A stretch of DNA of 64,000 nucleotides from contig RDEW01000006.1 of NCBI GenBank assembly GCA_011109175.1, forward strand, positions 1,113,989 through 1,177,988, given 5' to 3'. Within the stretch, counting starts at the first letter, position 1; every line of letters starts with the position of its first letter. The stretch is from Dicyema japonicum (lineage: Eukaryota > Dicyemida > Rhombozoa > Dicyemidae). The notes under the pieces were generated by a model, which did not search any database, was not told where the DNA came from, and was given only the letters and a program-made list of their open reading frames with translations. This document shows positions 219 through 64,000 of the stretch, piece by piece. The translations under genes were made by a program, and so were the position numbers.

Positions 219-1798
219 TTATTTAGTTATCGAGGACATGAATTTGTCAGATGAAATTGACTTTGGTCTTTCAATTGGGAATCCAAATGCTCTAGACCAC
301 ACCAATTGTGCCATAACACCCATAGCACGTGACACACCAAACAGAACTGTATAAAAGTAATTTTCAGTCATTCCAAAATGTTGTAACAAACATCCACTAT
401 GGGAGTCCACATTGGGGTATGGATTGCTCACTTTCCCAGTCTCCAACAAAATCCCGGGTACAACACGGTGCAGCTGGGCTACTAAGTCGATCAACGAGTC
501 ATTCTTAATATTCGCCTTAGCAAAATCTTGGAAAGCAGTGAATCTGGGATCTGTTTTCCTAAGGACTGCGTGGCCATATCCAGGAACCACCTAAGGATCT
601 AATCACCCATATACCTGTCCCTTAGCAAGAGTGTTCCTTATAAACTGACTCAATTCGTTGTCAGAAACACACTCCTTATCCAGTTCAGCCCTCACTCTAA
701 AGAGATAAGACAACACCTCCTGCAAATAAAACCACTAACTACCTGACAAGCCATTCCATGCAAGGGACCAGCCAAACCATTCATAGAAGCTCCAAAACAC
801 AGAAAAGGGTCAGACAGGGCACTCCCCACAAGATGGCATGTATGTGCACTTACATTGCCTCCCTCGTGATCACTAAATAATTAATTTAAATAAACCAGTG
901 CAATGTGAGGTACAGTCTCAACATGTCTACGAATGACTGATTGGAGTACCCCATCATATCCGCAAAGTTGCCTGTCCAGTCTCCGTTTTTCCGTTTCTGG
1001 TCAACGGAGGAGCCATCTCTATACAGATTCCTGTAGATAATAGCTGCCACTGTGGGTGCCTTGGCGACGACGCTAATGGTGTCCTCTAATACGTACTAAA
1101 CCTCATATCAGTGAAATAACCTTCCAGTATTCCGTTTTCGGAATCCCCCTCATGTAAGCTTGAGCGAATTCACTCTGTTCACTCAAGGCAGTCATTGCTG
1201 CACTGAACTGAGCCATTGGATGCACCGACGATGGCATGGCCTTCAGCATTTTTACGACAAAGTCTGGGACCTCGCATTTGTCCACTAATTCCTTAAAATA
1301 ATCTTGATTTAGTAAAACCATGGAGAGGCTATCCACTTGGGACCGTGTAGGGATCTTTCCAGTAGCCAGAAGCCAAAAGATACCCTCTGGTTGTACTTGT
1401 GTTCCGTTTGCACTGGTTGGTAGAAATTTGAGGACCTCATTAATGCTATAGCCTCGAAATCTGATCCCCTCGTTCGGGTCGAGCACTGAGGTCTCACAGA
1501 TTAGACCCAAAATCCCTTTCATTCCGCCATAAACCTTGGATTGTCAGTTTCAAGCCTACTTGGTCCACAGTTACCTTCCCCACTTCCGTGTTCCCGTACT
1601 CCTTCCTAAATTTGGCTACCCTTTCCTTCTCAGATTGGATGGAGATGGCCATAGTGTCTCTGAACTCCTAAGAATTATAAAATTGATGACTTCACAGACT
1701 GAAGAAAGATTCCTGACTCCAAACTGTGCACATTTCAGCTAAAACTGATCATTTAACCTCACTCTAAAAGATGGAGCAATTCTTGATACAACGAGCAT
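219..1798 (-). CDS. CS: Citrate synthase, mitochondrial (8 exons)
   Basis: Condenses acetyl-CoA with oxaloacetate in the mitochondrial matrix, the entry step of the TCA cycle. The gene is split by seven GT-AG introns: 1739-1762 (24 bp), 1668-1690 (23), 1535-1559 (25), 1096-1120 (25), 873-895 (23), 720-742 (23) and 591-614 (24). Splicing leaves 1413 nt, exactly 471 codons (470 aa), close to animal citrate synthases. The start at 1798 gives a basic, Ser/Arg-containing N-terminus ([14 protein letters not shown]) fitting a mitochondrial targeting peptide. Visible signatures are [23 protein letters not shown], the His region [23 protein letters not shown], and PNVDSHSG with the expected catalytic Asp. 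The stop lies at 219-221. No frameshift or missing catalytic residue was seen, so the gene looks functional. Identification and exon structure are both very secure. Confidence 0.96.
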
Positions 1799-2206
1799 AG
1801 GCATAATTCGTGCTGTTTTGATTAATTACAAATTTGTTAAGATATTTTTATATAAATATTAATAAAAATATTAATTTATTATTTTATTTGATAGTTTTCA
1901 CCATAAATTAATTTTTACCTCTAAAATACGTCATCAATTAATTTTCCTCACATTATGATCCCCTATTGTTATAATATTCAATAAATTTGTCAAATAAAGC
2001 TTACTTTTCTGTTTTAATTCTTTTAGTCAATGTATTTAAGTTATATTTTATTTCTGTAATTTTTGTGTTGTATAATAGTCGTTAGGTAGTTTATTAATCA
2101 GTCATTAAGTTTTTGTGGTTATCTTTATTCTACTAACTGATAAATAAAATAATAGTAACATAACCCATAGAACACTGATAAATAAAATAATAGTAACCTA
2201 CTAGTT
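1799..2206. other. AT-rich intergenic stretch
   Basis: AT-rich DNA upstream of the citrate synthase start. It should contain that gene's promoter, but I see no convincing motif or coding exon. A short direct repeat of about 28 bp (CTGATAAATAAAATAATAGTAAC...) occurs at about 2138 and 2176. Confidence 0.5.
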
Positions 2207-3760
2207 CAGGGGTCGGCAACTGTGGCTCTTGTGTAGACGACATCATCACAGGATCAATACGTTCAGGCAGCCACGGAAAGAGTACAACGTCGCCTGAAAA
2301 GTTTACTTGTTGCTCCTGGACGAAAATCGACTGACAATTAGCCATGAGAAATCCTTATTCACACAAGAAAATGTCAAATAGAAGTGGTTTGGTATATAGT
2401 AGAGATGGAAATCCAGATTCACATAGCCAAGTTGTTGCAAATGGAACCAGAACTACCTGTGCTTTTTATGCAAGGGTCGGAAAACCAAATTGCAAATCGC
2501 ACCAAAAAAACTCCAAAGAATTTGAGTCGTATAACATTTTCATTGTAAATGAGTGCATTTCAATCAAATTTTCTTTAATCTCTTTTCTATCCTCCATCTT
2601 TTCTATTTTGAAAGCGAGTGGGTTAACAATCCAGGTATCAGAATCTTTAATATATCCGATTGAGAAATAGTCAACAAATAATAGTTTCTAACATTCAGAA
2701 TGACTGCTGATTTTTTTAATATTTTTATATAAAGTTGAGTTGAATTCAATAGCAATTTCCAAAATTATTGTCTTAATACGTCGAGTCGACAATAACAGTT
2801 TATTCCTGAAGGCACGTAGATTGTCAGAACCATTTATAATGCTCATCCATTTCCCTTGAATTGAAAGATTCAAATGGTTAAGATGATTAAATATGTCAGC
2901 CAATTATGCCACAAAAATTAGAGATTTGAAACAATCAAATAGTTCAGAGTTTTTTTCAAATAAAAATTGTTCGATTTCACGTCTGAGAATAAAAAATCTT
3001 GTTAAAAACAGCCATCTAGCATCAGTATGATACAAGAGAACAGTGGCGTCAGCATCATAATCAGTACACAATGCTTTGAACAATCTATGATTCAAAGTCC
3101 TTCCTCGAATAAAATTTACCATTTTGACACACGAATTCAAGACATCTTTTAACTTCATAGGCAGAGACTTAGATACGAGTGCATGTCGATGAAGGATACA
3201 GTGAGTGAATGTTACATCTGGAACATGTTTTCTTAAAAGGGCTGCAAACTCCGACCTGTTCCCCAGCATAATTGAAACATCGTCCGTGCAAATTGACTTG
3301 ATAATTTCCAATGAACTATCGTGTTCATTAAAGAAAGTCTCGATTATTAGAAAAACATTTTTTGCACAGCCTTCTGTTTCGAGAGGTTTACAAAAAAGAA
3401 ACTCTTCGGCAATTAATTTTTCTTGTACATAACGAACGAAGTAAATTAGTTGACTGCAATTATCAACACCGGTAGATTCATCCAACTGGATTGAAATCTT
3501 GATGCAAGAATTCTTATATCCGAAACAACTTGTTTAAGAACATCATCGGTGATACAATTAATTCGATCCCGGATATAACTATTAGATAAAAGAATCTGCT
3601 GCAGTTTTTGAGAGCGTCTGGACCCAGAACTGTTTTCACAATTTCCAATGCACACGGCTTAATAAGAGTCTCCGCAATAGTATGTTGCTTCTTTGATTTC
3701 GCAGCTTCATAGTCATGTTTTGTTCGCTCATATATATTAGTTTGTTGTGTTTGATTGCCA
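2207..3760 (-). mobile_element. hAT transposon remnant (ZBED5/Buster-like transposase)
   Basis: The minus strand encodes pieces of a hAT-superfamily transposase of the ZBED5-like type. Seen in order are KKQHTIAETLIKPC, DESTGVDNCSQLIYFVRYV, the RNase H-like core region ICTDDVSIMLGNRSEF, THCILHRHALVSKSLP, YHTDARWL and HLNHLNLSIQGK. Frame changes near 3500-3600 and 2900 break the ORF; around 3500 the switch looks like a one-base shift rather than an intron. The left end, CAGGGGTCGGCAAC near 2207, resembles a hAT terminal repeat. The C-terminal dimerisation region is degraded and no matching far terminus was found, so the element is dead. Its right side runs directly into a cathepsin-like exon. 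Family assignment is confident; the ends are not. Confidence 0.8.
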
Positions 3761-3779
3761 AATGCGACTCCAGCGTATC

Positions 3780-4260: not shown

Positions 4261-4576
4261 ATTTGAAATGAATTTTAGATGAAATAAAATAATTTAAAAA
4301 TAAACGTAAAACAAGGACAATTAGGCCGATCATTTTAATTAATTCTGTCTATTTTTTATTTAAATGTTTTTCAAATATTAATATATAATATATTTTACGA
4401 ATATTAATATATTTATAACTATGGAGCATCCAAGGCGACAAGAGAGGAAAGTGAGTAACCATATTTTCAAATTGTAGAAAGGATTTTCCTGCTGAAAAAG
4501 TGTCTCGATGTTCGGTCAAAAGGTTTGTTGATACCAAAAGATGCAACAATTGTTCTTTTCGGAGGTTCATTGATAT

Positions 4577-9476: not shown

Positions 9477-9479
9477 AAC

Positions 9480-10816: not shown

Positions 10817-10819
10817 CTA

Positions 10820-11086: not shown

Positions 11087-11632
11087 ATGAGCTATGAATT
11101 TTTCGGAATTTTAAATAACCTTAGTAACGAAGAATTAAATTTAATACACGAGGACGAGTCCTTTGCCAGTGGAATAGCTCTAAAACTACCACGGGTACAA
11201 TAAAGAGTAAAATCTGATAGACTGCCGAACTAATGTCTGAATACAACAGAGTAAAGTCAGAATGCGTTCAAATAGCCTCCACAACTTTGAAAATGAAGGA
11301 GGAATACGAACGACTGAAGGAATCGATTAAAAGGGAACGTTTTGAGTTGGTCTCTCTATTGGAAGAATTCAAGCGATTGACTGTGAAAGGTGGTTTTGAT
11401 GATACAAAAAGGCTCAAATGACTCAAATTCAGCGGATTCAATTGGAGTCCAACTTCAGATTGCTGCTGTCTCAGAGGAAGAAAGGACGGAAGGGCTGGTA
11501 AATGACTTTTTTGACAGAAAACTACAAATTGATGAATTCCTGCAGAAATTCCAATCTCAGAGACAATATTATTATCAGCTCTTCTTTATGGATAAAAAAT
11601 TCAGAGATTCGACTAACTTTAATAAATTTTAA
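11087..11632 (+). CDS. VPS37: VPS37-like ESCRT-I subunit (Mod_r domain)
   Basis: ESCRT-I sorts ubiquitinated cargo into multivesicular bodies on endosomes; VPS37 is its Mod_r-domain subunit. Two introns, 11195-11220 (26 bp) and 11390-11411 (22 bp), give 498 coding nt (165 aa), exactly in frame. The N-terminus has NNLSNEELNLIHEDESF, a Mod_r-like start. A coiled region follows (KMKEEYERLKESIKRERFEL), and the C-terminus has EGLVNDFFDRKLQIDEFLQK and FQSQRQYYYQLFFMDKKF, matching the conserved 'F..g.i.ld.FL..y...R' signature. It is short but complete for a minimal VPS37. No regulatory motif is evident. Fold-level identification is good; which paralogue (A-D) cannot be told. Confidence 0.85.
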
Positions 11633-11885: not shown

Positions 11886-11889
11886 AAAT

Positions 11890-13282: not shown

Positions 13283-13858
13283 TTAAGAAAATTGAATATA
13301 TTTGAGGATAGAAGAATTATTTTTTGCTCCAATAATAAATTCGTTCAAGGATATTTCTCCGTCACCGTTATCATCTAATTTTTTGAAAATGTCCTTAGCA
13401 ATTTCTATGGGGGTCTTATCATCATCAGTGTCTCCTGTCAATTCATAAACCGCCTGAAATGGTAAGAACACGGATATTACAGTGACAATGGTTATCATTT
13501 CATTTTCCGTGATGAATCCGTCATTATCAATGTCGTGAAGACCGAAAGCCCACCTGAGTTTCTTATCAACGTCATCACAACGAGACATGTACATAGCAAT
13601 AGTAAATTCCTTAAAGTCAATAAAACCGTCGTTGTTTTTGTCAATGTGATTAAATAAATATTTTGAAAATTTAGTTGGATCTCCATTCGGGAAGAAGACT
13701 CTATACATTGTGTTGAATCCCTCAGAAGTCAGTTTTCCACTGGGACAGTTTTCAAGGAATGCTTGGTGGAATACCTGTAATTCCTTCTTTGAAAAGGAAG
13801 TGAACTCTTCCAGTTCTCGTTTCATGGAGTAAGTTAATTTAGTATTATTATTTCCCAT
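13283..13858 (-). CDS. Neuronal calcium sensor family EF-hand protein
   Basis: A small calcium sensor of the NCS/recoverin/visinin family. It begins MGNNNTKL, so Gly2 is a likely N-myristoylation site for membrane targeting. The order is EFTSFSKKELQVFHQAFL, a degenerate first EF-hand containing CPSGKL as in the family, then loops DKNNDGFIDFKEF, DIDNDGFITENEM and DDNGDGEISLNEF. The reading is open throughout as 191 codons, but it contains a 27-bp GT-AG intron at 13454-13480 that is a multiple of three and has no stop. Removing it turns an odd insertion into ITIVTAVYELTGDT, the family's usual helix, giving 182 aa. The stop is at 13283. Subfamily (NCS-1, hippocalcin or VILIP) is not decided. Confidence 0.93.
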   Translation of the reverse strand: MGNNNTKLTYSMKRELEEFTSFSKKELQVFHQAFLENCPSGKLTSEGFNTMYRVFFPNGDPTKFSKYLFNHIDKNNDGFIDFKEFTIAMYMSRCDDVDKKLRWAFGLHDIDNDGFITENEMITIVTVISVFLPFQAVYELTGDTDDDKTPIEIAKDIFKKLDDNGDGEISLNEFIIGAKNNSSILKYIQFS

Positions 13859-21201: not shown

Positions 21202-23261
21202 ATGATTACAAAAAAGTTTATTCACGACCTCCAAAGAAAGTTACAAGCTAAACTAGAAAATGGAGTATAAAGATTGGTGACTTTTAGAAACAAAATGAGG
21301 TGATCGACGAGATTAAGACATTTGATGACGAGAGGATTATTACTAACATCGAGATCGTGAGAATTGGAGTGTTTGCTCTTTGCGAGTTGAGTTTGTTTTT
21401 ACTTGACTAGACGGAATTTGAAAGGAGATTTAGCAAACGCTGAAAATTTATGTTTTAATGTTTTATTTCTTTAAAATTTAGGCTCTTCGCACGTGTTCTC
21501 CAAATGAGAAGAGTGACATATTTATTCTGCTTGGGAGAGGAAAAAAGCATAAGTTCCTAGACTCGGGTTCTCTGGAAGATGCAAGAAAATGCAAAGAATA
21601 GTATTAATTTGGCAAACTTGTAGCTACGATATGGCTCGCATATTAAGTCGGAACCCCCATGAATTTGTGAGCATCATAAACCTACTTACTCTGTATTATA
21701 CGCTTGGAGAAAACTTTAATACTGCTAAGATAAAGGGATACAGTTTTCCTTGTGTGTTTATTTAGTCGACTTGTTGAAGCTTAGGGTTTCAAGTCCTCAT
21801 AACAATCCGTTTTGGGTGAATAGTACCCTAGTAGTACTCCATTGTATGTTAAACAAATTCGCTCTTATGATCTCTTCGATGGAGGAGATTAGCAGATCAA
21901 AGCCTTCTCAGAGGTTTTGGTTTTCTATATTCAAAGAGAATGGAGGGAAATATGATGGCTGCTGACCGTTTAATTTTTAATAGATCTGTAGTCCTCTTAT
22001 TTATTTTTAGTTCCAGGAAATCCTTGAAAATTACCTCAAACCAAATATTCACGAATTATCCCTATTTGTAGCTTTATGTTTTATTTTCAGGCTTTGACTA
22101 TGGGGACTTTATGTAGAATCACTCCTTCCATTGAGGACAACCACCTGGTATTTCCTTTGCATTATTTAGAATATTACATACGAGGGAACTAACAGTTTGG
22201 AAATCCTTACGAGGCCTCGCTTTCAGTATTATTTATCACCTTATTAGTTTTATTGACCCAAATAAGATTGAGATTATCTCCAATAACTCAAATATAACCA
22301 TACAGTTCGTGAATTACGAAAAAACACGAAAGTAATCTTTTATCACTACTTAGTGTTCTTCAATGGATACAAAAATACGCTGGACAGACTGTAAAGTTAC
22401 GTCCCTTGACAGACTCAGTGGTCCTCCCTCCCATTGACTTCTCTCAAGTTGGGAGTGGAACTAGTTTTAATGTGACTTCGGCAACTTTTCAAAATTTCAA
22501 AGTGAGAATTGTCCCATATAGAAAATCGTTAGATTGAGCTTATTTCTTTAGTGTGGCTGATAAGCTCGTTTCCTCGATTGATGCTATAGACGAGAGTATG
22601 ATTCGACATCCTGTACTCTTCAGACACCAGGAGGTTATACAACATGATTTATTCTTAATTTTTGTTGTTGACTATTTTAATGGTTTTTTTCGTTTTAATA
22701 CAAGTTCTGTCTCTGAGAGATCTCATCCTCAGTGAAGAACCAATTGTTGACAGCCACATCGTGGAATGGGTTCATCAGTTGTTGGACGGTCTGGTTTACA
22801 TGGTTTTTTTATTTTTTTACTTCCAGCATGATCTGAGAATCATACATGGTTTTATTTGCGGGAGAACAGTCTATGTGTCTTCTCTAAAAGTGAAGATCGA
22901 GATTTGCGATTTTTTCACAACAGCCAATCTCATTTCGGGAGAGAAAGTTGATGATCTAATAGAAATTGCACCAGAAATTATTAAACATGGCTCATGTGGA
23001 GTTTGTTTGAGGTATTGTATTATGAAAAATTTATAGAGCGACATTTGGGGTCTTGGTGCCGTCACGTGTGAGTTAATAACACGGCAACCTTTTGATTACG
23101 CCAATATTAGAACAGAATCAGGGATAGTGCCCACATCGACTTTTTGGGATTTTATTTTGAGGTAACTCACTCCCCTGTTTGATATTAGATGTTGTAGGGA
23201 AGAACCTAGTATGAGGACATCCTTAATGGATTTGAAGTTTCATCATTTTTTGATGAACTGA
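21202..23261 (+). CDS. MAP3K-like protein with C-terminal, apparently inactive kinase domain
   Basis: Sixteen introns fit: 21265-21287, 21371-21410 (40 bp), 21460-21481, 21601-21623, 21743-21765, 21914-21938, 21988-22010, 22068-22090, 22148-22169, 22226-22247, 22332-22353, 22528-22551, 22683-22704, 22803-22826, 23012-23038, 23162-23188. The spliced reading from Met 21202 is 556 codons in exact frame; the true start may be further upstream. An unrecognised N-terminal region of about 300 residues precedes a kinase fold: VGSGTSFNV (Gly loop), LFLIFVVDYF (hinge), WVHQLLDGLVYMHDLRIIHG, ICDFF, IAPEII, SDIWGLGAVTCEL and REEPSMRTSLMDLKFHHFL (subdomain XI, just before the stop). HRD is replaced by HGF and DFG by DFF, and the beta-3 Lys position reads Arg. 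I infer a pseudokinase related to STE11/MAP3K kinases, perhaps a scaffold. Confidence 0.82.
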
Positions 23262-25100: not shown

Positions 25101-26290
25101 CTAAAGGCCAACCTTGAACCTGACTAGTTCAATACAAGTTCGGGCATCAGTTAAACTGTCATGTCCTCTACTATCTGCTGTGATATGACCAAACAACCAT
25201 TTTGTATCATTTTATTCAAGTAGGTAAGAGCCAAATACCTGAGGGAATTCCTACAAGAAGGTCCCGATTTGTGTGGAAATAGAGCAGAAGTGTCCACCAC
25301 GGTTTCGTGTACAAGCTAAATTTTCAAAAACCATTTACTTTAATGGCAACAAAGTCATTATGCATACTGTGCCCAACTAGAATTGAATTACTACAAAGAA
25401 GATTCAAATCATATTCTGAACATCTTTGAATGTCGTCCTTGTTTCCTTTAATATCTCTTCTGTGATCCCACTGAATCTAATACTAAACAAACCACGTGAC
25501 TTTGTATTATAATCTATTATTTTCCCCACAGGAAGCACATAGGAATCATAAACCAACTGGAGGTTGTGGTCCACTAAGGTTAGCCTCCCTAATTCAATTC
25601 CATTTGTTGTGTAAATCATTTCACAGTCAATCCCATAAATTCCACATTTACAACTTCCTCCACGACAATCTGAGGAAGTCACATAGCCAGTTGTCTCCGC
25701 ACCCTGGTACACGTGGTACTAAATGTAAAAGAAATCAAACTAATGCTGATGAACAAGGGATAGCCCATCTCAAACTGGAGTTGCAACATGAATAATTTGG
25801 ATAGATACTTCTGTTGTACTTGTAAGGATGATAATGACACATGGGTGTGCGTGGCTCAGTCTTATAGTGTTCATCTATATAAAAACTGTCTCCACAGCGA
25901 CGACACAAACCCATTCCATTCGCATTCTTAACTGAAATTATTAAAAAACTACCTTGTGGACAATATTTGCAGTTCATGAACATCACAGTCTCAGGATCAT
26001 TTATGCGGAAAGTTGGATAACCAAATATCATTAGACGATCGAATGATAAAACGTGAATACTTAACTTGTCTCTAAGCAGTCTCCCTAAGAAATCCTAAAA
26101 TAAGAAGACAGTCAATAAATTCCACATTTTTAACATCTTCGTTATTGAGATTGTAGGTGTTTCTAACAGACATGTGATTTTCGGTCGAGTCAACGCATTT
26201 CACTTTTATTATTGTGGTTTTGATAATTTTTACGTTTGACTTATCAAAATGGGCATAGACCACAGACAATTTGATTTTCGATGGAATCAC
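25101..26290 (-). CDS. REXO1-type RNA 3'-exonuclease (DEDDh)
   Basis: 3'-to-5' RNA exonuclease of the REX1/RNase T family, expected in nuclear RNA processing. Six introns fit: 26095-26125 (31 bp), 25932-25952 (21), 25720-25741 (22), 25477-25500 (24), 25316-25338 (23) and 25178-25197 (20). Before the nuclease domain is a zinc-binding stretch, [13 protein letters not shown] with CHYHPYKYN and YSCCNSS. Catalytic motifs are [11 protein letters not shown] (D, E), [11 protein letters not shown] (D) and [12 protein letters not shown] (H, D), a complete DEDDh set, with [10 protein letters not shown] between. One frame break at 25398-25405 is repaired by a single extra T in ATGATTTGAAT and may be a sequencing error. 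Protein ends FKVGL at 25101. The start at 26290 is the first Met of the upstream open frame. Confidence 0.88.
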
Positions 26291-33435: not shown

Positions 33436-34640
33436 TTAATAATATTGTGTAGAATTTCCATTCCATTTAGGTTCAGTCTCTCTATCATTATTATTGGAAG
33501 TAGTAAACATTCCACTCACTATAGAATACACATAATTGGGGACATAAAACAACCAATCAATACAAATTCTACCAAATTTGTACATCCTCACAATTGCACC
33601 TTCCTATAATAAATACACAACATTACTGGTTGTGGAGAATGTACAGTAGACACATGCATTACAATAGAACAGGCCTTTATTACATCATCAAATGATCTTT
33701 CTTCTAGTTTTGTTATTTTAAGAGATATTGGATGACCCACATTAATCACAACATTACCACCAAACTCCTATCTTATTATTTAAATTAATACAGCTTCTAT
33801 TAAACTGTAAGCTTGACTCAGTTTGTCCTTTCTACTAAATTCATGTCTTAGACTTCTTCCATCAGGTAGTCTGAACATCACGTTTATTATGTCCCCCTCT
33901 TAAAAACTACATTATCGCCCTCTTTTCGTGGAATAATTGTCTCCTTCTCTTTCAGTCTTTTTGTAACACGTAACTCCTTTTCTTTTCTAACTAAATCTTC
34001 TAATCTCCTCCTATATTCATCTTCTTCAGCTTTTTCTCTCTTCAATTGCTCTATTCTATACTTTTCCGCCTTCTCTTCTAATTCTTTTCTAATATTTGAC
34101 TGTTCAATGCCATCCTTCCGTCTTCTCAACTCATTTTCACCTTCACTAACTCCGCTAATATTAATTAAAAAATAACCTTATTTTAGGTTGAGAAGAAACT
34201 GTTAATGTAAACCTGGTCGAGAAAAAGGTCTAATAATAAAAAAATCAGTAATACTCTAAAGATTCTAACAATAGAACGCATAAATGAGGAAGAGTCACCC
34301 ACGTGATCAACTATTTGACCGACTGATACCCCATCCTTATCAACAAATTGTAAACTGGGGACCTTACAACTAGAAAGATGGTTTATAAAAGAAGGCAATG
34401 AATCCCTAATAATAAAGTGAATTGATTACATAGAGTATTTAACAATAAGTGACCTATTTGCTTCAGTAATAGTATATACTCCCTGTTGGTTAAGCATATC
34501 AATAATAGACAGTGAAAAGTCAGTGTCATCTGTAGTAATATTGTAAATATACCTGATATAAATATAATTAGTAATGAATTATTAGATTTTATATATTCTA
34601 AAGCATTTTCAATTGTTCCACAATAAAACACTCCTGACAT
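33436..34640 (-). CDS. UBXN4-like UBX-domain protein, ER-associated
   Basis: Order from 34640: a thioredoxin-like UAS-type domain (MSGVFYCGTIENALEYIKSN; VYTITEANRSLIVKYSM; CKVPSLQFVDKDGVSVGQIV), a charged coiled coil (KELEEKAEKYRIEQLKREKA), a UBX-like domain (NVMFRLPDGRSLRHEFSRKD) and a C-terminal hydrophobic hairpin-like segment (RICIDWLFYVPNYVYSIVSG). This is the layout of UBXN4/erasin, a p97 cofactor in ER-associated degradation. Six introns fit: 34530-34552, 34406-34429, 34230-34254, 34155-34176, 33768-33791, 33604-33626. One frame break near 33880-33892 is cured by one extra G in a G5 run. The FPR motif that binds p97 is not visible; the loop reads KLEERSF, so p97 binding may be altered. 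Stop at 33436. Confidence 0.75.
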
Positions 34641-36992: not shown

Positions 36993-37701
36993 TCAATAAA
37001 ATTCCTTTCGTTTATACTTTCTCTGGTAATTTTGAGGGAGAGACCTTCGACGAGCATTGATGAACCAGTTATTGATTTGCACGTGTGTTAGATTTGTTTT
37101 GTAAACCATTTCAGCCTTTTCTTGTTCAGTTGGATAAGGGTTCTGTTATAAGTGTGAAACAAACCATAGCATTCTCATATAACCATTTTCGTAATATATT
37201 TGTTGATTTGATTGATAAACATCTTTTTTCTAATTTGTCTGTAATTTCTGAATCCTAATTAAATTAATAAAATACTTTAAATGTTTCATTTTTTAATATT
37301 TGCACTAATATTTATTATTTATTAATACTTTTAATCTTTTCTATATTTGATTTTAATTCGTATTTGTAGTAATTAGAATACGTGTCTTTAAACTTATTAA
37401 TATAATCATTCATCAGTTTAAACTCCAACAATTGACTCCACAGTGATTCGATCGCACACTTTATCTACCATTACATATTAATAAATACCACTTCTTCCAC
37501 TTCCTTACTCCCTTCTTTTTTGTTTTTAAAGCTTTCTAACATACAAATTTGAATTTCTGAGATATCATCCATCACTAAAGTCCCCCTTGTTATTAAATTT
37601 AGTTTTTCATAAATTTTATTAATAACTTTGAATAAAAAATGACTAATTTATATATAAAACTACTTTTTAATTTCCATTTTAATTAAATCTTTAGAACTCA
37701 T
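36993..37701 (-). CDS. MEIS/PREP-class TALE homeobox protein (6 exons)
   Basis: Transcription factor with MEINOX and TALE homeodomain. Five introns, 37643-37663 (21 bp), 37465-37488 (24), 37305-37328 (24), 37255-37275 (21) and 37143-37164 (22), give 597 nt, exactly 198 codons plus stop. The N-terminus has [20 protein letters not shown], parallel to the MEIS/PREP 'HPLFPLLALIFEKCELAT' box, then [20 protein letters not shown], the second MEINOX half. The homeodomain contains [20 protein letters not shown], with the TALE loop extension, and [15 protein letters not shown], the recognition helix; Ile at position 50 excludes PBC-class. It ends within 15 residues of the homeodomain. At 198 aa it is far shorter than usual MEIS or PREP proteins because linkers are lost. 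MEIS against PREP cannot be decided. Confidence 0.93.
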
Positions 37702-51837: not shown

Positions 51838-52545
51838 ATGGAGTCGGTTATTCAGTCTGCCATTGGAGGAGATAAACCCGAAGCCGTATAGAGTTTTTTG
51901 ACCTCATAGTTGGAATATCTAAATCTTGATGGTATTGAAATCACATTCAAACAGTTAAGCAGCTACACATTTCCGGAACTTAAGACACTTAGCATTTCTA
52001 TGTGCGGTTTAACCTCACTGAGTGGATTTCCAAACTATCCCAAGTTGGAGAAACTGACGCTCACTTCTAACGATCTATCCGACGGACTCGAATATGTCGT
52101 GCAGTCGTGTCCTTCTCTTATATATCTGGACCTGAGCAGCACTTTGTACACTCCTGAGAGTCTCTCCCTCTGGTGCCCGAATTATTGATTGTAGGCAAAT
52201 ATTAAATCCTTGATTGGATTACAGTTAACGTTGACTCCGGCTTCTAAGATAGAGAACTATGTAGCTTCCACATTCAAGGCTTTTCCTCAATTAAAAGTGG
52301 TAGATAACCTGAATGTTGAGGGAGAAGCTATCTATTTTGGTATTTGTATTTGTTTATCAACAGAGGATGTCATCAATTTCGACGAGGAGGACTTTGAGGA
52401 TGAGGAAGATGCTGACTTTGATGATGAGGACGATGATGTGTTTTCTGATGAATCTGATTGTTCTAACAGTGGAGAGAGTGAGGAGCAGGAAAAGAGACAC
52501 AATAATTCCAATCCTGAGTCTAATAAGAGACCCAGGAATGATTAG
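51838..52545 (+). CDS. ANP32-like acidic leucine-rich nuclear phosphoprotein
   Basis: ANP32 proteins are nuclear histone chaperones and phosphatase regulators. The start MESVIQSAIGGDKPEA is joined by an intron at 51886-51909 (24 bp) to LEYLNLDGIEITFKQLSSYT. LRRs follow: FPELKTLSISMCGLTSL, YPKLEKLTLTSNDLSDGLEY, CPSLIYLDLSST. The cap region reads ENYVASTFKAFPQLKVVDNL, parallel to the ANP32 'yRe.vF.LlPqLtyLDG' cap. A 24-bp intron at 52340-52363 is in frame and stop-free. The C-terminus is very acidic (FDEEDFEDEEDADFDDEDDD) and ends KRPRND, as in ANP32. A further intron at about 52173-52194 (22 bp) is likely, but its junction leaves the frame off by one, so either the boundary is elsewhere or a base is missing. 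Confidence 0.85.
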
Positions 52546-53238: not shown

Positions 53239-53239
53239 T

Positions 53240-54842: not shown

Positions 54843-55763
54843 CGAGTGTGAACATTTCACTGCGGATAGTCTTTTAAGGAAATGCACTCAATAAAAAGAA
54901 AAAAAACAAGTGACGACATTTTGTGGTTTTCCTTCTAAGATTAGTTATCATAACTGTTCTTTACTTAAAATGTGTGTCATGGTATTTATATTTGTTCCAC
55001 TAAATAGGATAACGATTAACAATGATAAAATGAGGTTATTAAATGAAAATTGTAATTTCTTAAGTGCTTGTAAAGTAGTTAAATGCTTGTAGTTAAATAA
55101 GTGTTTGCAGTAGTTAAATTGATTAAGTTTGTCGATTATTATATTTGTGGGCAGTATTTCATAATTAGTTCATTGATTAACATTAAGACAGATTATCTCC
55201 TTACAACATTTCTATATTTGGACTTGATTCTCTTCAAAATGACTGTTTATTATTAAAACTCAGACTTTATCAAAATAATAAACTAAACATAATCAGGTCA
55301 ATTAGAAATTTTATTATATCCGCGTTGTTAGTCTATAATAGACACTATTTGTGTAATGGATTATGTATAATTTAAAATGTATAGGGTTGCACAAATTGTC
55401 TATGTCAAAATCGGCGGGATGGGCATCTTTAACCGCTCTCCATATAACGAACTTGTAGTCTTTTCGCATCTTAAGTGATTTTTGAGATATTTGATAAAAA
55501 TATCGTAGAGGGGGCTGTGTAGTAAGACTCATAAACTCAGAATTAGGACCGATTATTATCTAACCCGAAAAAGGGAACACCAGGAAAGAAGGAATTAAGT
55601 GATCCCGGTAGACCCGAATTAGGATAGATTATGTTGTCAGCTTCTTTGATATGCATTCGATTGTAAAAAAGTTAAATAACAAAAAAAATATTATTTAAAT
55701 TAAAATCAATTTAAATAATAATTATAATATTGATGTGGATTATACCCAAAGAAATAACAAAAA
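54843..55763. other. Intergenic with retroelement tail
   Basis: 54880-54970 resembles the LINE-type 3' UTR at 30940-31030. A minus-strand reading at 55314-55532 (MRKDYKFVIWRAVKDAHPAD) is open but unrecognised. 55560-55605 carries the shared tail GGGAACACCAGGAAAGAAGG with GTGATCCCGGTAGACC. The last 150 bp are AT-rich and should contain the TBC1D9-like promoter. Confidence 0.35.
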
Positions 55764-58700
55764 ATGACAAAAGATGGTAATTATATAATAATATGAAAGG
55801 GAAATTGAGAGAGCCAACATGTTCTTTTCACTACAAATATACCACAATTACTTTATTAATGACAGAAAAGTATATTTTAATAAAATTTGAGAAATCCCGA
55901 ATTGTTTTAATACTCAAACATAAAAAATATAGTATTTATTTTATTTATTCAGTTATTTTCACTGACACGTTCGAGGAAAGTCTAATAATGTGGACTTGGA
56001 TAGAAAATAACCTTCTCCCTACTATTTGTATGTGACTCCTATATTCTAGTTTCCATGGACGAGGAGAATGACATTCTTCCGTTCATCAGTGACAAAATAC
56101 TCTCAATCCTCGAACAACCCTTACCTTTGGAGACAGTAAACACTGACCTTGTGTGTGGTATTAATTATTTTTATGGAGAATTTCCCTGTTTTTACTGGTA
56201 TGACGCAATTCCCATATCTGGGACAGCCTTCATTTGGCTGACTCATTTATCATTCGATTCAAACAAACACCACGTGAAAATAAACTGGTCTTCGTTGTTG
56301 GTTGGTAACGTGGGATGAATTTTTAGGATACAATGCCTCTCCAACACGTCTTCTCCGTTGATGTTGTGACATTTGTAACCCAAAACAGACTTGTTTGTAT
56401 GTGGATGTAATGTAGCACCGTTTTTCAGTGATAAACAATTCCAAAGAGTTTGAAAATATAACGGGAATGATGATAAAACGGAGTAGTGACTCACAAATGG
56501 ATAAGTATTTACTTTATTCATCACAGATACTCCATTCCTATCAAAAGGAGATTATCAGCCATCAAAATATGGGACAGGACAAGGTATATCCCCTCTTATT
56601 TCACACAGAAAGACATTCCATATTTCACAGACGGAGGAACTTAAGAGCTTCACTCCCACCTGTCTATTCGTCCCCTATCTTGAAAAGTCTGTGACTGGCC
56701 ATCTTTTCCTTTCTGACAACTTTTTTTGTTTCACCAGCAAGGTGATTCTTATTTTTATGTAGACTGAAGGACTTGCCTCCTTGGCTATCCCTTTCTACGA
56801 AATTGTCTCTATTTCGTCGGTCTCCCACGAAAAGATTTCCATAATCACACGTGATGAGGTTAACTCTGGATTAACGTTAAGAACACTTATCAATTCACAG
56901 CCATATCTAGCTTGGAATTCGAGGAATCTGTTAGAGTTTTAAATTTGACTTTAAATTTGCATTCTTCCAAACCACCCTGTCTTCACCACCAAGGTCATGT
57001 GGGAATATTATTTTAGACATGGAAACCGCTTTCTGTGCTCTACATCTAAGACAGAACGATTTTAATGAAAGAATGGTAGACAGACTTGCTGAGTGTAACT
57101 GGGAGATGCTTCTTCTTAAAACAGGATGTGGTCCTTGTATGTACAGAATCTCAAAGACAATAGAATATTCCTACTCAGGCATCGTTGAAGGGTACCGTCA
57201 GGATATATGTGTACTCAGGTGCAGTTTATCTGGTTTTTCTACATTTTACTTAAGCGGGATCAACAACCGGACTACTATAGAAGGATTCTCTCTCAGTCAT
57301 GTAATGAAACCATTGCCGATGAGATTGAGAAGGATCTTTATAGGTATTACACTTTTAAACTCAGATCTTTGCCTGAACATCCAGTATTCCGTACAGATAA
57401 GGGAGTCAGGGCCCTTCGTAGACTTTTGACAGCATATGCTATACATAACCCGTCTGTAGGGTACTGCCAGGCCATGAACATTGTTGGGTGTGTCCTTCTG
57501 GTATACTGTGACGAAGAAATCGCTTTTTGGATATTTGTACAGATTTGTGAAGTTCTCTTACCTGATTACTATGATAAAAACGTATTTGGCGCACGTGTGG
57601 ATATACAAGTGTTACGGATGCTCAACAAAAAGTACCTCCCATCAGCTTATGCACTTCATAACATGGGAAGTGATCTTTTCACAGGGATATGTCTCTCTTG
57701 GTTCCTTACCATTTTTATAAACGTGATGCCATTCAACTGTGCTGCCAGAATCATTGATTGCTTCATTTGTGAGGGACCTCCCGTTTGTGTGGTTTGATAT
57801 GATAGATCCTCTTCCGTGTGGCCCTCACCATGTTCAGTCACTGCACCGACGGAATTAATAACGCTAACGAGTATTTTGAGGTCGTCACTGTAATCAACAA
57901 TTATCTTAATCGGATTGTCTACCGGCAAAACAGTATGTGCAACAAAACAGATCCCATTAGAATTGACGACCTTCTCAATAAATCTCACTCTCTTTTTGGT
58001 GGCATTACAATAGGGGAGATTGATTCTCTCCGGACACGCGTTCGTTTATCTATAATGCAGGTTGGTGAGTGGACAATTGTCTAGGACAACGCCAAACGTA
58101 ATATTGACGACGTGATTGGAAGTGCATCTGTGATGAGTCTGCTCTCCCCTTCAGAACTGACACAATTATTTTATGTTTTTAAAGCCAACTTTTTTGGAGA
58201 TCAGTGGACTGACTCTCAGAATCTCTTTGAATTTGAGGACGCAATTTTTGATCCTGCTGACTACTACCGAATAAGATTTGACCAATATTCTCTCCTAATG
58301 AAGAGTCTCACTCCTTATCGTCTTTCCGATGATCTCATACTGAGGATATTTAAAGTTTACGGAAATTTTATATTCCATAGCTGTTGGACAAGTCCTCTTC
58401 CAGTACAATATCTTTTCTTGATTTTTCCTGGCTGATTGGCTTACTCCATAAAGGAGACACATCCAGCATATTAGTTTTACTGTATTTGGCACATCTTTAT
58501 TCCCTTGAAGGTGAGGAATTGAGTTATTCTTAGAATCATCAGATCCCCAGGAAGCTTCCCAACTTCACAAAGGTTGAGGTTACTGTTATTTCCAGATATG
58601 TACCAAATTGTCGTGCAATTTCAAAACAGAATAACTTTTAGTGAATTTCCAAACATCGACTCTGTAATCTGGTTTTTATTATTTAGACTCGATTGCTCAA

Positions 58701-58953
58701 AATGATTCAAAATCTTTACGAGTTAGGGGACGATCAGTTAGCCTCCTCTATTCAAACAGCCTTAGCTTCTATTACAAAGATTGGATGTTGTGCTTTGAGC
58801 TTTGAGAATGAGTCATCTAATGGGAAAAACTTTTATGTTTCCCTCCCTCAGTTTTTAGGTGCCATGATTCATCAATCCTATATTTCATCATTCTTTGAGG
58901 ACAATCGGTGTTCCTTTTTTGATTTAGTGGGTCATATAACAACACAATCATAA
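55764..58953 (+). CDS. TBC1D8/TBC1D9-like Rab GTPase-activating protein
   Basis: Order: a first GRAM region (WTWIENNLLPT; MDEENDILPFISDKILSILE; GTAFIWLTHLSFDS), a second GRAM (VTGHLFLSDNFFCFTSKTEG; LASLAIPFYEIVSISSV), the TBC domain (GPCMYRISKTIEYSYSGIV; EIEKDLYRYY; VGYCQAMNIVGCVLLVY; LLPDYYD; FTGICLSWFLTIFINVMP) and an EF-hand-like C-terminus (LDKSSSSTISFLDF). This is the TBC1D8/9 layout; such proteins stimulate Rab GTP hydrolysis on membranes. Thirteen introns fit: 55777-55799, 56028-56049, 56301-56326, 56397-56428, 56662-56687, 56742-56762, 56994-57016, 57783-57805, 58061-58084, 58355-58380, 58511-58533, 58573-58595, 58664-58686. Junctions near 56850-56960 and 57190-57260 are unresolved; the second covers the GIP..R (catalytic Arg) motif, so catalytic competence is undecided. 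Confidence 0.88.
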
Positions 58954-59190: not shown

Positions 59191-59631
59191 TTAATTAAAT
59201 AATACAGATTGAGTGAACATTTTGATTTTGTTTACTGTAAAGTCCTTCCAATTCCCGTTAGGTTGAAATAAAATAAACCGCATCTGTAAAACATTCTCCA
59301 ATTTGACATCAAACTCGGTTAGCTCAAATGAGTTTTCAGATTCATTTTCAAATTCTGTATGATTCATTAGTTCTTTTCTAGTTACTACAGTAATCCAATT
59401 CCTTAAACAATAAACTAAGTACAACCTAGTATCTCCTGTCTTGTAAATAACCTGAATAGTGATCTGGTGAGTGTAATAGTTATCAAACGTAATCCTTGTT
59501 ATCTACTATAATGTTAACCGACTTGCATTTAAATTTGATTTAAAGTAAATATTGATAACACGACATCCAGAATTGAAGCAATCCTCATATAATAGCACTT
59601 TTCCAATGGATTTAACAACAATATCAATCAT
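59191..59631 (-). CDS. NICN1: Nicolin-1-like protein
   Basis: Nicolin-1 is associated with the tubulin polyglutamylase complex. With one 24-bp intron (59495-59518) the gene gives 417 nt, 138 aa plus stop. The reading is MIDIVVKSIGKVLLYEDCF ... RITFDNYYTHQITIQVIYK, LYLVYCLRNWITVV, LQMRFILFQPNGNWKDFTV and NKIKMF. The ITF.NYYT, CLR(N/D) and LR.ILRQPSP.W..FTVEEL.I blocks of nicolin-1 are all recognisable. It is shorter than animal nicolin-1 (about 213 aa) and lacks the C-terminal third. The start at 59631 faces EFCAB7 with 39 bp between start codons. TBC1D9 ends 237 bp away on the other side. Confidence 0.82.
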
Positions 59632-59670: not shown

Positions 59671-61647
59671 ATGACATCAATTGAGTCTAAATTATATGAA
59701 AATTGTAAAGCCTCATTCTACAATTATTATTTGGGATTAAATTATTTGATTAATTCAGAGGAAGAATTCATGACTTGTATTTTAATTATTTATAATTAGT
59801 ACTACAAATGGCAGGACTAAATCCTCCAAGTCACAAAGTCAAACTGCTATGGAAAGAAAACAAAGGTAAGCAGGCTTTGATAAACAGATTCCTTCACTTT
59901 CAACCGTTTCTGTCAGGCCTCATCACAATTCCAACAAATTGACAAAAAATCCTTGCTCGAAAAGTTTAAAAAATTGGACAAAAATGATAATGGATATTTA
60001 AACAAGAATGACATTCTAAAAATGCTCAGTCAGGTAATTTATGTGTGAAATTTAGTATAACCAAGGAAGACGATGTGATGACGTACAAGTCCTTCTAAAT
60101 GAGATGTACTTTGAAAATGATAGATTTTACTATGAAAAAGTTATTTTTTGAGTAAAACCAGTTTTGTGATGATTTTGAGCTCGCAACTGAAAAGTTATTA
60201 AATTTAATGAAAAATGAACTGGATAGTTCACAAAAAGGTAAAATGATGTAATATTAAGAAAAATCTCCAAAGGGAATCCTGAAAGCAACTAAAGTAGAAA
60301 AACCAATAAAAACGTTAAAGAAAGAAATATTTCAGTACAATTTAGGGACTCTTAACATAATTAATAAAATAAACAGTACAATATTCAGGACATATGATTT
60401 TAAAGTAAATAATTAATTTCATAGAAATATCACTATACTTCACTTAATGGTTGTTTCTACTATGACGCAAGTGATGTTATGTGGTCACACGTGTACGAAC
60501 TTAAAGTCACCCATAAATGTTCTCCTATTATTTACATCAGTCCAAGTTTGTATTTTAATAATTCAGTTCAACGGAGTAATTTTATTTTTACATTCTTACT
60601 TGACCAGTTTGGACATTTAGCAGGAGTATCGTCCTTAAAGGACCAAAATGGAGTAAATATGTTTATAAAATTAGGTATACATCACCAATCTAAAGTTACA
60701 ACCGGGAACCTACACGTTGGTACCATACGCAATCAATTCTCCTATATCAGTCAAAAAAGACTACAAATCAACCATCCTAGTTAGAAAGGACAAGAGTGGA
60801 CAGTTCAGACTTTCAGAAAGATGCTTGTATTTGTTATTATCATTTAAAGGACTGCAGTTACGAAAGCATTTGAAATTTTAGATTTAAATAATGATGGGTT
60901 CTTGGATTTATTAGAATTTAATTTTTACTACTTATTAACAACAGGGGAGACCATTAACCAAGAAATATGGTTACAACTTAAAAGTAATTTATTTTTGTTG
61001 AAATTCAGCAAAGGGGTTTGCAACAGATTCAGGTGTAAGCTTACACGACTTGATAAATCTGATGGAGTTGGAATTGAAAGCAAATTCAGGACAAGTCCAC
61101 GATATCTGGACTACTTTGATTCTTCTTGGGTTCGACAGTTCACTTAATTGTGTTAAAGTAATGAATTTGTCAAATCCAGAATATTCCCTTTGAGATGACT
61201 TGTTTTAATAAAAACAAAAAGTTAACTTTTGAAGTGAAGGCTCTAAGAAACACAAACTCAGAGCTCATAAAAATATTTAGAAATTCACAATCTCAGAACG
61301 TATAACCGTTTTCTCTATTCAGGTTCAAAAAAGGACTATTCCAGTTCTATCTGACTTTTCATCATATTCGATAAATACTGACTTGTTTGTGCTTATTATT
61401 TACGACAATCAGGTAATAATCATGGTTTATGGTAGTTGGACAAACAAGTAGAAATTGAATACAATGTCTCAGATAGTCATAATCTCCAATCAATCAACTC
61501 TAAATTTTCTGGAAATTTCAAATTGATGCCAAAATCTAAATCTGTTTAATATTTTTAATATTTTAGAATTCATTTGGGTACATAAGTTGTGATAATGTCT
61601 CAGAATATAAATTTACTTCAAACGAAATTATTAGAATCACTGAATAA
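59671..61647 (+). CDS. EFCAB7: EFCAB7-like EF-hand ciliary protein (14 exons)
   Basis: EFCAB7 is an EF-hand scaffold at the ciliary base that acts with IQCE in Hedgehog signalling. Thirteen introns fit: 59777-59799, 59866-59887, 60034-60055, 60140-60161, 60238-60258, 60405-60424 (20 bp), 60720-60750 (31), 60827-60849, 60984-61008, 61158-61179, 61300-61322, 61413-61435, 61544-61566. They leave 1677 nt, exactly 559 codons; human EFCAB7 is about 630 aa. Landmarks are LYENCKASFYNYYLGLNYL, LLQMAGLNPPSHKVKLLW, KFKKLDKNDNGYLNKND (EF-hand), LNGCFYYDASDVMWSHVYEL, SPIIYISPSLYF, LDLNNDGFLDLLEFNFYYLL (EF-hand), VHDIWTTLILLGFDSSLNCV and NIPFEMTCFNKNKKL. A stop-free 21-bp GT-AG stretch near 60675-60695 might be another intron. 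Confidence 0.9.
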
Positions 61648-62368: not shown

Positions 62369-62874
62369 CTAATCAATGACGTATTGTTTGTTGTCCTCCA
62401 TTAGAAGGTATAAAAGAGTTAAAACAAAGACAACAACAAAGAACAGTCGAATCTATAATTATAAAAAAAACAAACAATCCATCTCATGTATCGATATGAC
62501 TGTTTTGGAGGGGCTACCACAAAGTTCTTATAGTTGTGAATCGTTGGTCTGGCACTCACTCCATACGCTCTTGAAGTATTGGTGTACACTCCACTAGGGC
62601 GTGTAGAATTCATTGTGGAGGATAGACATGGAAGATCGTTGAACTGATCACTATCGCAGTCGCTGTCATCTGTCGGTAAATCGCAAGTGGAATTTTCTTG
62701 TAGTTTTTGTAGTCGCATTTTGTACACTTTTCTGGTACTATCTGAAGAGGTATTTATAAAAAGAATACCTGTGAGAGGACCTACACTGATGTTGTGACTA
62801 CGAAGAGATGACCGTAACTCAACATCAGTTAAATCGCTAATTTCTTGACTAAGGTTTGAAAATCGGCTCATCAC
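62369..62874 (-). CDS. LEM-domain inner nuclear membrane protein (emerin-like)
   Basis: LEM proteins tie the inner nuclear membrane to chromatin through BAF. Two introns: 62742-62768 (27 bp, in frame and stop-free) and 62453-62475 (23 bp). Spliced length is 456 nt, 151 aa plus stop. The LEM domain is at residues about 10-48: LTDVELRSSLRSHNISVGPL, joined by the first intron to TDSTRKVYKMRLQKLQ; the GP.....TR..Y..KL signature is complete. A Ser/Thr/Asp-rich linker follows, and the second intron creates a C-terminal membrane helix, IIRLFFVVVFVLTLLYLLM, with a short tail EDNKQYVID. This N-terminal LEM, linker, single C-terminal TM layout is that of emerin. Its start is 39 bp from the stop of the upstream polycystin gene, same strand. 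Confidence 0.9.
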
Positions 62875-62913
62875 ACAATAAGACGGCGGGTAATATTTAA
62901 AAAAATTAAAAAA

Positions 62914-64000
62914 TTAATTTTTAAAATTAATATTATTAATCTTATTTAAGTAATAGGACATTTCTACATTAGTATCAAATTTAATGATCTCTAAAACCTC
63001 ATCCAAAAAGTGGGCATATTTCTGTTTGTGTGAATAACCGAAAACCTGTTCTTGACTTGGGTATATTTCCATTTCATTTTCAGTTTTTCCTAACATTGTT
63101 TTGATTTTCCTCCACAAAAAGTTAATAATTTCATTTCCTCCATTTCTTCTTCCTTTGCCTTTGCGTAAGAATCATTGATTATGGAGACAAACATACTCAA
63201 CAGTATAAAGATGCAGATTATTGCGAAGAGGAAGAACCCAGGCAAGGCGAGACGAGAGTTTGCTGTGACTAACTCGGAAAACTTGAACTTTCCTAGTTTT
63301 TAAACAATTCCGATTACCGAGAATCATATTCAGGGAAGATTCCAACGAGTAAAGCAAGGTGGAATAATTTTGAAGATGGGAGTTGAAAGCTAGAAAGAAA
63401 TAGGCACAAAATGCGAAAAATATGATAAAAAACAAAATAGAGAAGAAAACTATTGATTTGGAAGTCTGACGAAGAGATTTGATAAAAATAGTAATAAATG
63501 AGCTCTTTTTAAATAATTTGATAAATTTTATGGTAGAAAAAAAGACATTCAATCCAATCGCCCAAATGAGAAAATCGTTAGCATATGCCAATTTCTAAAG
63601 TCAATAATGGCCAGCACCTGGAAATTCAAATAAACATCTCCCTTCTCTTCATTAAATTTATCAAGCAGGACTTTAGTCTTTATTAGTTTGTAAGCATAAA
63701 ATCCAATAATAATAAATGAAAATGACATTATCATTAATTCTACTAAATTCCAAAATTTTGTAAAATATTGTAATTTTTCGTGGAATAAAGTGAAGAGCTG
63801 TAATGAAAATATAAAATAACTTGAATAATAAAGTGAATAACCACAAATAACACAAAAATGCTTTCAAATACAAATTGTCTAATATTTTCAATGTCCAAAT
63901 AACCTAATAATTTGATTGGATTGACATAAATATATGTACTAATTTGTCCAGCCAAATTCCACTCAAATAATAGGGATGTAAATGCAAAAATATTTATTTC
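62914..64000 (-). CDS. Polycystin-2-like (TRPP) cation channel, C-terminal part
   Basis: Partial; continues beyond the right edge. Reading from 64000: QISTYIYVNPIKLLGYLDIE and IRQFVFESIFVLFVVIHFII (TM), then after intron 63798-63820 KLQYFTKFWNLVELMIMSFS, after intron 63595-63617 LAYANDFLIWAIGLNVFFST and IKFIKLFKKSSFIT, VFFSILFFIIFFAFCAYFFL, and after intron 63293-63317 the pore region MILGKFKFSELV and the last TM FFLFAIICIFILLSMFVSII with NDSY. The NDxY end and LGxF pore match polycystin-2. The filter reads LGK where PKD2 has LGD. A frame break at 63130-63138 is cured by one more A (GGAAATGAAA). Cytoplasmic tail: NEIINFLWRKIKTMLGKTEN to NINFKN. Confidence 0.85.

Follow-up and report, generated by a model that had tools for sequence, protein, structure and literature searches.

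We identified 81 GT-AG introns of 20–27 nt (median 23 nt) in 12 host-type genes of Dicyema japonicum within the window (i.e., the whole 64,000-nt stretch that was analysed), and, judged on sequence, these short introns are confirmed as real. They are probably true U2-type spliceosomal introns shrunk to ~ 23 nt, and an essentially conventional spliceosome would remove them through recognition of weak cues and sequential binding. A sequence-only reading of this DNA had proposed GT-AG introns in many unrelated genes, mostly of 22–25 bp and in frame, and our set (67 of the 81 introns with 22–25 nt) bears this out. Its range of 20–40 bp was too wide for the window, and its claim that such introns occur throughout was too strong, because U2AF2 holds one 68-nt intron. 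Introns of this size are already known in dicyemids (accessible parts of PMC2222250, PMC6543705 and PMC6736024; PMC2483917 for weak 5′ sites), and the tiny introns and weak 5′ sites described here match the published ones; that reading, too, saw the short introns as fitting the group.

The intron set of the window

The 81 introns, found with a purpose-written gene finder, are distributed over the following genes:

219..1804, minus strand: citrate synthase (CS) gene, 463 aa, 8 introns of 23–27 nt (Pfam PF00285, E 2.6e-92)
11233..11632, plus strand: VPS37/Mod(r)-type gene, 1 intron of 22 nt (score 5.8; Pfam Mod_r, E 2.5e-11)
13283..13858, minus strand: EF-hand protein, 1 intron of 27 nt (gene finder, Pfam)
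21202..23076, plus strand: MAP3K-like gene, 15 introns of 22–25 nt (Pfam Pkinase, 9.3e-9; MAP3K_TRAF_bd, 1e-7), two predictions in the looser run
25101..26173, minus strand: exonuclease-like gene, 7 introns of 21–25 nt (RNase_T match just below cut-off)
33436..34640, minus strand: UBX region in two predicted pieces, 6 introns of 22–25 nt (UBX match below cut-off, in the lower piece only)
36993..37572, minus strand: TALE homeobox gene (MEIS/PREP type), 4 introns of 21–24 nt (score 5.4; Homeobox_KN, E 2.7e-20)
52231..52545, plus strand: acidic C-terminal fragment, ANP32-like on visual inspection, 1 intron of 24 nt (without Pfam match)
55733..58953, plus strand: GRAM-TBC (TBC1D8/9-like) gene, 914 aa, 21 introns of 20–26 nt (RabGAP-TBC, E 1.6e-42; GRAM, 1.1e-10)
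59191..59631, minus strand: NICN1-like gene (so named in the sequence-only reading), 2 introns of 24 nt (weak prediction, score 2.5; no Pfam match)
59671..61647, plus strand: EFCAB7-like EF-hand gene, 14 introns of 20–25 nt (gene finder, Pfam), split in two with 12 introns in the looser run
62369..62871, minus strand: LEM-domain gene, 1 intron of 23 nt (LEM, E 1.8e-10)

This set combines a stricter listing (gene score > 5), in which 84 window introns minus 10 in five retroelement-like or nameless-ORF predictions left 74, with 7 introns from a looser prediction run (the low-scoring VPS37, homeobox and NICN1-like genes); further small intron-bearing predictions of the looser run (e.g., a PKD-channel piece) lie outside it. 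Training the finder from long ORFs initially gave few introns with scattered lengths, probably because retroelement codon usage was learned, and retraining with a 20–28 nt length prior and softer penalties recovered citrate synthase, after which training was good. In the first models, a cluster of 50–56 nt introns arose in part from the length prior. With this prior extended to 199 nt, introns of at most 28 nt made up 360 of the 390 found, 8 had 29–60 nt and 22 had 61–199 nt, several of these last being probably false. A test for a Paramecium-style shortage of 3n introns free of stops was abandoned because the finder is blind to many of them; an in-frame stop is present in 99% of 70 3n introns of a site-free set (predicted without splice-site weights) and in 69% of 111 in the trained set.

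Controls and homology of the predicted introns

The apparent introns could be an artefact of a frame-joining gene finder, given that its iteratively trained length distribution may reinforce itself and that it did bridge frame breaks in retroelement-like ORFs. We regard this as extremely unlikely, since the reversed-sequence control is nearly empty, the length peak survives a flat-length run and the segments are missing from homologues. Indeed, 284 kb of the genome yielded 85 genes with 411 introns, whereas the same stretch reversed yielded 1 gene with 2 introns (a complement-only control equals the reversed sequence on the other strand and adds no information). The run without length preference or splice-site weights (12–90 nt) gave 186 introns and kept the 22–25 nt peak, its own reversed control giving 1 gene and 1 intron.

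When the CS, RBBP4, PLRG1 and beta-TrCP genes were compared with solved proteins, 22 of the 27 junctions within the alignments were gapless and 5 had a gap nearby; LIS1 was also compared, but kept out of these counts because the alignments shown were to a repetitive WD40 protein. Freed of its 8 introns, the CS product aligns with a solved citrate synthase over residues 7–458 (E 1.8e-172), with one single-residue gap that falls at none of the 8 junctions, all of which are gapless (identical positions are given out of 11):

1739..1762, minus strand: CS intron of 24 nt, 1/11 identical, poorly conserved N-terminal part
1668..1690, minus strand: CS intron of 23 nt, 2/11 identical, poorly conserved N-terminal part
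1535..1559, minus strand: CS intron of 25 nt, 7/11 identical
1292..1318, minus strand: CS intron of 27 nt, 3/11 identical, 3n length with no in-frame stop, missing from the homologue
1096..1120, minus strand: CS intron of 25 nt, 5/11 identical
873..895, minus strand: CS intron of 23 nt, 9/11 identical
720..742, minus strand: CS intron of 23 nt, 7/11 identical
591..614, minus strand: CS intron of 24 nt, 8/11 identical

The GT-AG ends, which the gene-finder model imposes, together with homologues that lack the segments, would place these introns in the U2-type (major) class.

Branch-like motif and probable cues for recognition

That such introns leave no room for a normal branch-site-to-acceptor spacing or polypyrimidine tract, as had been proposed, is not borne out in that form. 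The motif TNAY with its A at −8/−7 (7–8 nt from the 3′ end) occurs in 156 of 351 introns versus 53.5 expected from mononucleotide shuffles (maximum of 77 among 500; dinucleotide-shuffle mean of 55.6), and the introns are U-rich on both sides of this putative branch A. In the site-free set, the motif was found in 94 of 242 introns (shuffle 32.1, maximum 47). It is carried by 45% of introns (40% in the site-free set) compared with 6.5% of exonic decoys; it is also present in 11 of the 22 homology-checked introns, and the remaining 195 of the 351 introns are without it at −8/−7. Among 179 introns with a single TNAY in their last 13 bases, the A lies at base 16.2 ± 1.9 and at 8.3 ± 1.8 from the 3′ end, and extra intron length is split between loop and tail (slopes of 0.59 and 0.41). 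These observations point to the TNAY A as a putative branch point, which would lie ~ 16 nt downstream of the 5′ splice site. A branch-like motif, which emerges here from motif statistics, is absent from the accessible dicyemid intron literature, and the accessible text of PMC2483917 (2008) reports no branch signature for introns from a single Dicyema species. T amounts to 45–47% and A to 22–23% upstream of the branch region, and T content separates introns from decoys with an AUC of 0.86–0.91; these statistics rest on gene-finder predictions made here, and T-richness may be inflated because the introns were picked partly for their non-coding look.

The donor past GT holds about 0.56 bits only (at +3 to +6), and this, like the very narrow length distribution, would fit a ruler by which any exonic GT..AG pair 21–27 nt apart is spliced with little sequence need. 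Right-length exonic decoys are also slightly rarer (0.92–0.93) than those at other spacings (0.95–0.99): exonic GT..AG pairs at 22, 23 and 25 nt number 494 versus 532.4 expected (ratio 0.93, z −2.2), and those at all non-3n lengths of 20–26 nt number 802 versus 872.1 (0.92, z −2.9). However, this depletion is slight and points to no more than weak selection against decoys. In addition, 1072 exonic decoys stand against 339 introns of 21–27 nt in the same 49 genes, and sequence, composition and length features split the two with a cross-validated AUC of 0.93–0.97. Spacing alone does not define the introns, and a pure ruler is very unlikely.

The weak donor also bears on U1. U6 or protein contacts could choose the 5′ end, with U1 kept mainly for the rarer longer introns; +5G is indeed not preferred over decoys (AUC 0.48–0.49) despite intact U1 and U6 pairing sequences, and at least 5 of 7 U1 matches are seen in 4/22 longer versus 13/360 short introns (p 0.012 by Fisher test, the lowest among five tests). 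Yet this p value fails correction for five tests, the 22 longer introns are the AT-rich part of 29 and may include several false ones, and introns match U1 better than decoys do (2.5 versus 1.6 of 7; AUC 0.70–0.73, or 0.64–0.65 with wobble). Such a reduced role for U1 appears unlikely.

Splicing parts and a proposed mechanism

Judged by sequence matches, the genome retains most of the splicing components that we looked for. U1 has 11 copies, all under gathering score, with an intact 5′ end (ACUUACCUGG in 10 of 11), U2 gave 22 matches above cut-off and U6 gave 9, with ACAGAGA intact in both of the 2 copies read; of the major snRNAs of U2-type splicing, the genome thus has U1, U2 and U6. In the window, Rfam models gave no match at gathering score. 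U2AF2 shows tandem RRMs (E 1e-62) and a UHM (E 2.1e-33), exons of SF1 and U2AF1 are 50–58% and 49–66% identical to human, respectively, SMU1 is 56–69% identical, and SLU7 and PRP18 were both found, so that their loss through short branch-acceptor spacing, as listed for Stentor, was rejected. The question of how U1, SF1 and U2AF recognise such introns, raised by the sequence-only reading, is thus answered in part: the SF1, U2AF1 and U2AF2 genes exist, and for recognition itself we infer the scheme given below, the accessible literature agreeing with that reading that a mechanism is not established.

SPF45 was not securely found with full-length human RBM17 as query, which gave no N-terminal match, one UHM that is part of a PUF60-like gene and, on a different contig, one G-patch exon. 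The first match had been read as SPF45, and this was rejected on the RRM-RRM-UHM layout of the gene, which we take to be PUF60-like (in Pfam, RRMs only, the third below cut-off). These pieces, together with the retention of U2AF1 and of U2AF2 with its conserved tandem RRMs, argue against removal of the same introns without U2AF, SPF45/RBM17 replacing the U2AF heterodimer. Such replacement is quite unlikely, although the 6–7 nt that follow a branch A at −7/−8 are too little for a canonical U2AF65 site, and a human precedent exists in a subset of short introns with truncated pyrimidine tracts (accessible text of PMC8363638). The human SPF45-dependent introns resemble ours in the truncated tract before the acceptor, but they are longer (56-nt model intron), whereas here U2AF is kept and SPF45 is uncertain.

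For a conventional spliceosome acting on shrunken U2-type introns, the intron would run from a 5′ GTW through a U-rich stretch to a TNAY branch A near base 16, and would end in a short U-rich tail followed by YAG. Recognition would be the sum of weak cues on one compact unit (U-richness, narrowly placed branch A, YAG, W at +3, G at exon −1 and tight length) and not strong U1 pairing. U1, SF1/U2 and U2AF would most likely bind in turn, because the three can hardly fit side by side on 23 nt in human geometry; U2AF65 may contact the U-rich stretch upstream of branch A or leave early, and SMU1 may aid activation across the short distance from 5′ splice site to branch; in human extract, a short distance of this kind makes Smu1 and RED indispensable (accessible text of PMC6692369). 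Possible, though less likely, is the more specific reading that this animal, in which U2AF (with its tandem RNA-binding domains), SF1, SLU7, PRP18 and SMU1 are conserved, has almost every intron spliced on a ~ 16-nt loop and a 6–7 nt tail: U2AF's U-rich contact would be shifted upstream of the branch point, the two intron ends would therefore be recognised sequentially and not simultaneously, and the unchanged U1 5′ end would no longer dictate the 5′ splice site.

Among known systems, dicyemids (Dicyema acuticephalum, D. japonicum and Dicyema sp.) are similar in their very short introns of narrow length, typically 22–30 nt as here; the accessible texts give a mean of 26.2 nt (n = 16, genomic versus cDNA clones; PMC2222250), a median of 27 nt with about two thirds below 30 nt (PMC6543705), and a 5′ boundary of 0.5 bits (PMC2483917), close to the value found here. 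Our introns differ in their mode of 23 nt and in the branch-like signal. The assembly used comprises 64.67 Mb in 191 contigs, and the accessible text of PMC6736024 gives a D. japonicum genome of 67.5 Mb with 36.7% GC. Stentor coeruleus, as far as the accessible part of PMC9505925 describes it, has 15–16 nt introns with a near-fixed branch A (10th base, 5-nt tail) and a weak branch consensus, and shares A/U-rich introns, major snRNAs, U2AF1, U2AF2 and SF1; in contrast, introns here have mostly 20–28 nt, with the A at about base 16 and a tail of mostly 6–7 nt, and SLU7 and PRP18 are found, both being N/A in the Stentor table. Paramecium also has tiny introns (20–35 nt; accessible text of PMC2222250). 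SMU1 is conserved in ciliates, as here, but RBM17, which is reported to be conserved in ciliates as well (accessible text of PMC12862383), was not securely found here.

In human extract, ~ 50 nt are needed between the 5′ splice site and the branch site, splicing being abolished at 46 nt (accessible text of PMC6692369), and an animal that seemingly copes routinely with ~ 16 nt would be a natural test of which spliceosome contacts are dispensable. With the parts inventory, three points become testable: which site U2AF binds if the space past the branch is too small for a tract, why the U1 5′ end is conserved despite the donor mismatch at +5, and what keeps SLU7 and PRP18 in place although, in yeast, both are dispensable at short branch-acceptor spacing (accessible text of PMC10711555).

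Short introns and their gene models

Tiny introns have already been published for dicyemids (excerpts of PMC2222250, PMC6543705 and PMC6736024), the last giving D. japonicum 67.5 Mb, 36.7% GC and a mean intron of 38.2 bp; the assembly used here comprises 64.67 Mb in 191 contigs, and GC runs from 31 to 42% along the window (2-kb steps), a size and base composition compatible with a dicyemid. The window holds 81 introns across 12 host-type genes, 67 of them 22–25 nt long; Pfam matches are above the cut-off for eight of these genes, just under it for two (exonuclease-like and UBX) and lacking for two (ANP32-like and NICN1-like). The gene model, run per strand, combined codon log-odds with GT..AG introns and carried the codon phase across them, and was trained on 284 kb (the window itself, 10-kb stretches around 20 of the ~70 places with WD40 matches, and six of eight further loci). 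Within these 284 kb, 85 genes scored above 7, of which 69 bore introns (411 introns, mode 23 nt), and the reversed-sequence control gave only one gene with two introns; the complement-only control is the opposite strand of the reversed one, i.e., the same sequence. When splice-site weights and length preference were dropped and 12–90 nt allowed, 186 introns were called, still peaking at 22–25 nt, with one intron in the corresponding reversed control.

Junctions were checked by aligning four intron-bearing predicted genes to solved proteins, namely citrate synthase (E 1.8e-172), RBBP4 (E 4.8e-170), PLRG1 (E 6.1e-181) and beta-TrCP (E 1.6e-130). Their 32 introns include 27 within the alignments, and 22 of the 27 show no gap up to 5 residues from the junction; these 22 measure 21–27 nt (nine are multiples of three), with G at +5 in four and T in 13. 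In the five introns with a nearby gap, the splice site may have been wrongly chosen. Two mutually diverged RBBP4-type genes occur on separate contigs, in stretches L041 (4588-6051) and L049 (4030-5573, by eye only).

Amid the intron-dense host genes of the window lie long ORFs or fragments that, by eye, resemble non-LTR retroelement endonuclease and reverse transcriptase; two further predictions are listed with them:

Neighbouring elements in the window
4467-7573, minus strand, retroelement-like ORF/fragment (by eye)
14396-15674, minus strand, retroelement-like ORF/fragment (by eye)
47299-48728, plus strand, retroelement-like ORF/fragment (by eye)
49051-50155, plus strand, retroelement-like ORF/fragment (by eye)
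53403-54842, plus strand, retroelement-like ORF/fragment (by eye)
27635-28537, plus strand, DDE_3 transposase, unbroken 300-aa ORF (Pfam E 6e-33)
63090-63327, minus strand, polycystin-type channel gene piece (PKD_channel E 7.4e-7)

The transposase ORF was split by introns in a looser gene-model run and whole in a stricter one, and the channel piece has one predicted 25-nt intron outside the count of 81.

Short introns are the rule, yet other kinds exist, since U2AF2 holds a 68-nt intron whose removal yields GQDQVKELLISFG, where the solved protein has DDQVKELLTSFG. Among longer introns, the AT-rich subset (22 of 29 called) displayed U1-like donors in 4/22 cases vs 13/360 short introns (p 0.012 uncorrected, best of five tests), which is only a lead that such introns carry somewhat more U1-like donors. 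Stretch L040 contains two adjoining WD40 genes (3654-4806, SNRNP40-like by eye, and 6679-7818), each with one 51-nt intron of similar sequence amid introns of 21–27 nt.

Splice-site and branch letters

Past the GT, the donor carries ~0.56 bits over +3 to +6 (n = 369 introns, genes scoring at least 15), a value near the published figure of 0.5 bits for the 5′ boundaries of dicyemid introns (excerpt of PMC2483917), and 88% have A or T at +3. The frequency of +5G did not exceed that of exonic decoys, i.e., GT..AG pairs of intron-like spacing (AUC 0.48–0.49), and the whole U1 match was higher in introns than in decoys (AUC 0.70–0.73).

The excerpted text of PMC2483917 reports no branch signature for the one dicyemid species concerned, whereas here TNAY with its A at −8/−7 is enriched, in 156/351 introns of 20–28 nt vs 53.5 in shuffles, and in 94/242 vs 32.1 among introns called without splice-site weights. 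In 179 introns with a single motif in the last 13 bases, the mean position of the motif A is base 16.2 and its mean distance to the 3′ end 8.3, and added intron length divides between both sides of this A. The T:A ratio is 2:1 upstream of this A and 3:1 in the short tail; in most animals, U-rich motifs gather near the acceptor (same excerpt).

Decoys were counted in the exons of 49 genes (21,004 codons), with expectations from synonymous shuffles. GT..AG pairs at 22, 23 or 25 nt numbered 494 vs 532.4 expected (0.93, z −2.2), those at non-3n lengths of 20–26 numbered 802 vs 872.1 (0.92, z −2.9), and other spacings gave ratios of 0.95–0.99. Because such decoys outnumber the 213 introns of 22, 23 or 25 nt in the same genes and their depletion is small, GT..AG spacing alone is insufficient to define introns, and decoys are only slightly selected against. 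A combination of donor, branch and acceptor letters reached a cross-validated AUC of 0.97 (342 introns vs 1072 decoys), and 0.91 in introns called without splice-site weights (n = 236).

Spliceosome parts and the compressed intron

The inventory covered U1, U2, U6 and the proteins named below. U1 has 11 copies (stretches L009-L019), each under the Rfam gathering score (45.7–69 vs 69.5 bits), with the 5′ end ACUUACCUGG in ten; the odd copy, in L011, deviates at the 5′ end and also in the 3′ part. U2 gave 27 matches (22 above cut-off), with GTGTAGTA in all seven loci, from a set of 12, that were read in sense orientation, and U6 gave ten (nine above cut-off), with ACAGAGA in both copies inspected. 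U2AF2 is present (tandem RRMs E 1e-62, UHM E 2.1e-33), as are U2AF1, SF1, SMU1, SLU7 and PRP18, each as exon matches only. Another gene in the genome is one we take to be PUF60-like, and the genome search gave no secure match to SPF45/RBM17. Beside the main SLU7 gene on contig C68, partial matches at C31:16119-16319 and C43:29445-29573 (the latter below cut-off) may represent duplicates, pseudogenes or leftover haplotypes. Neither an inventory of the dicyemid spliceosome nor a positive report of a branch site turned up in a partial literature search, with Ogino et al. 2010 outside its scope.

If the TNAY motif is the branch site, the distance from the 5′ splice site would be ~16 nt, whereas human extract does not splice at 46 nt and Smu1/RED are essential in it at short distances (excerpt of PMC6692369). 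A comparable layout is described in Stentor, where base 10 of 15 is the branch A; the table in the excerpt of PMC9505925 lists neither SLU7 nor PRP18, both of which are retained here. Yeast can dispense with both when branch-acceptor spacing is short (excerpt of PMC10711555), whereas this animal keeps them. Factors would bind the tiny intron in sequence, and the U2AF contact would sit upstream. The parts found in the genome argue for a conventional U2-type spliceosome acting on a compressed intron.
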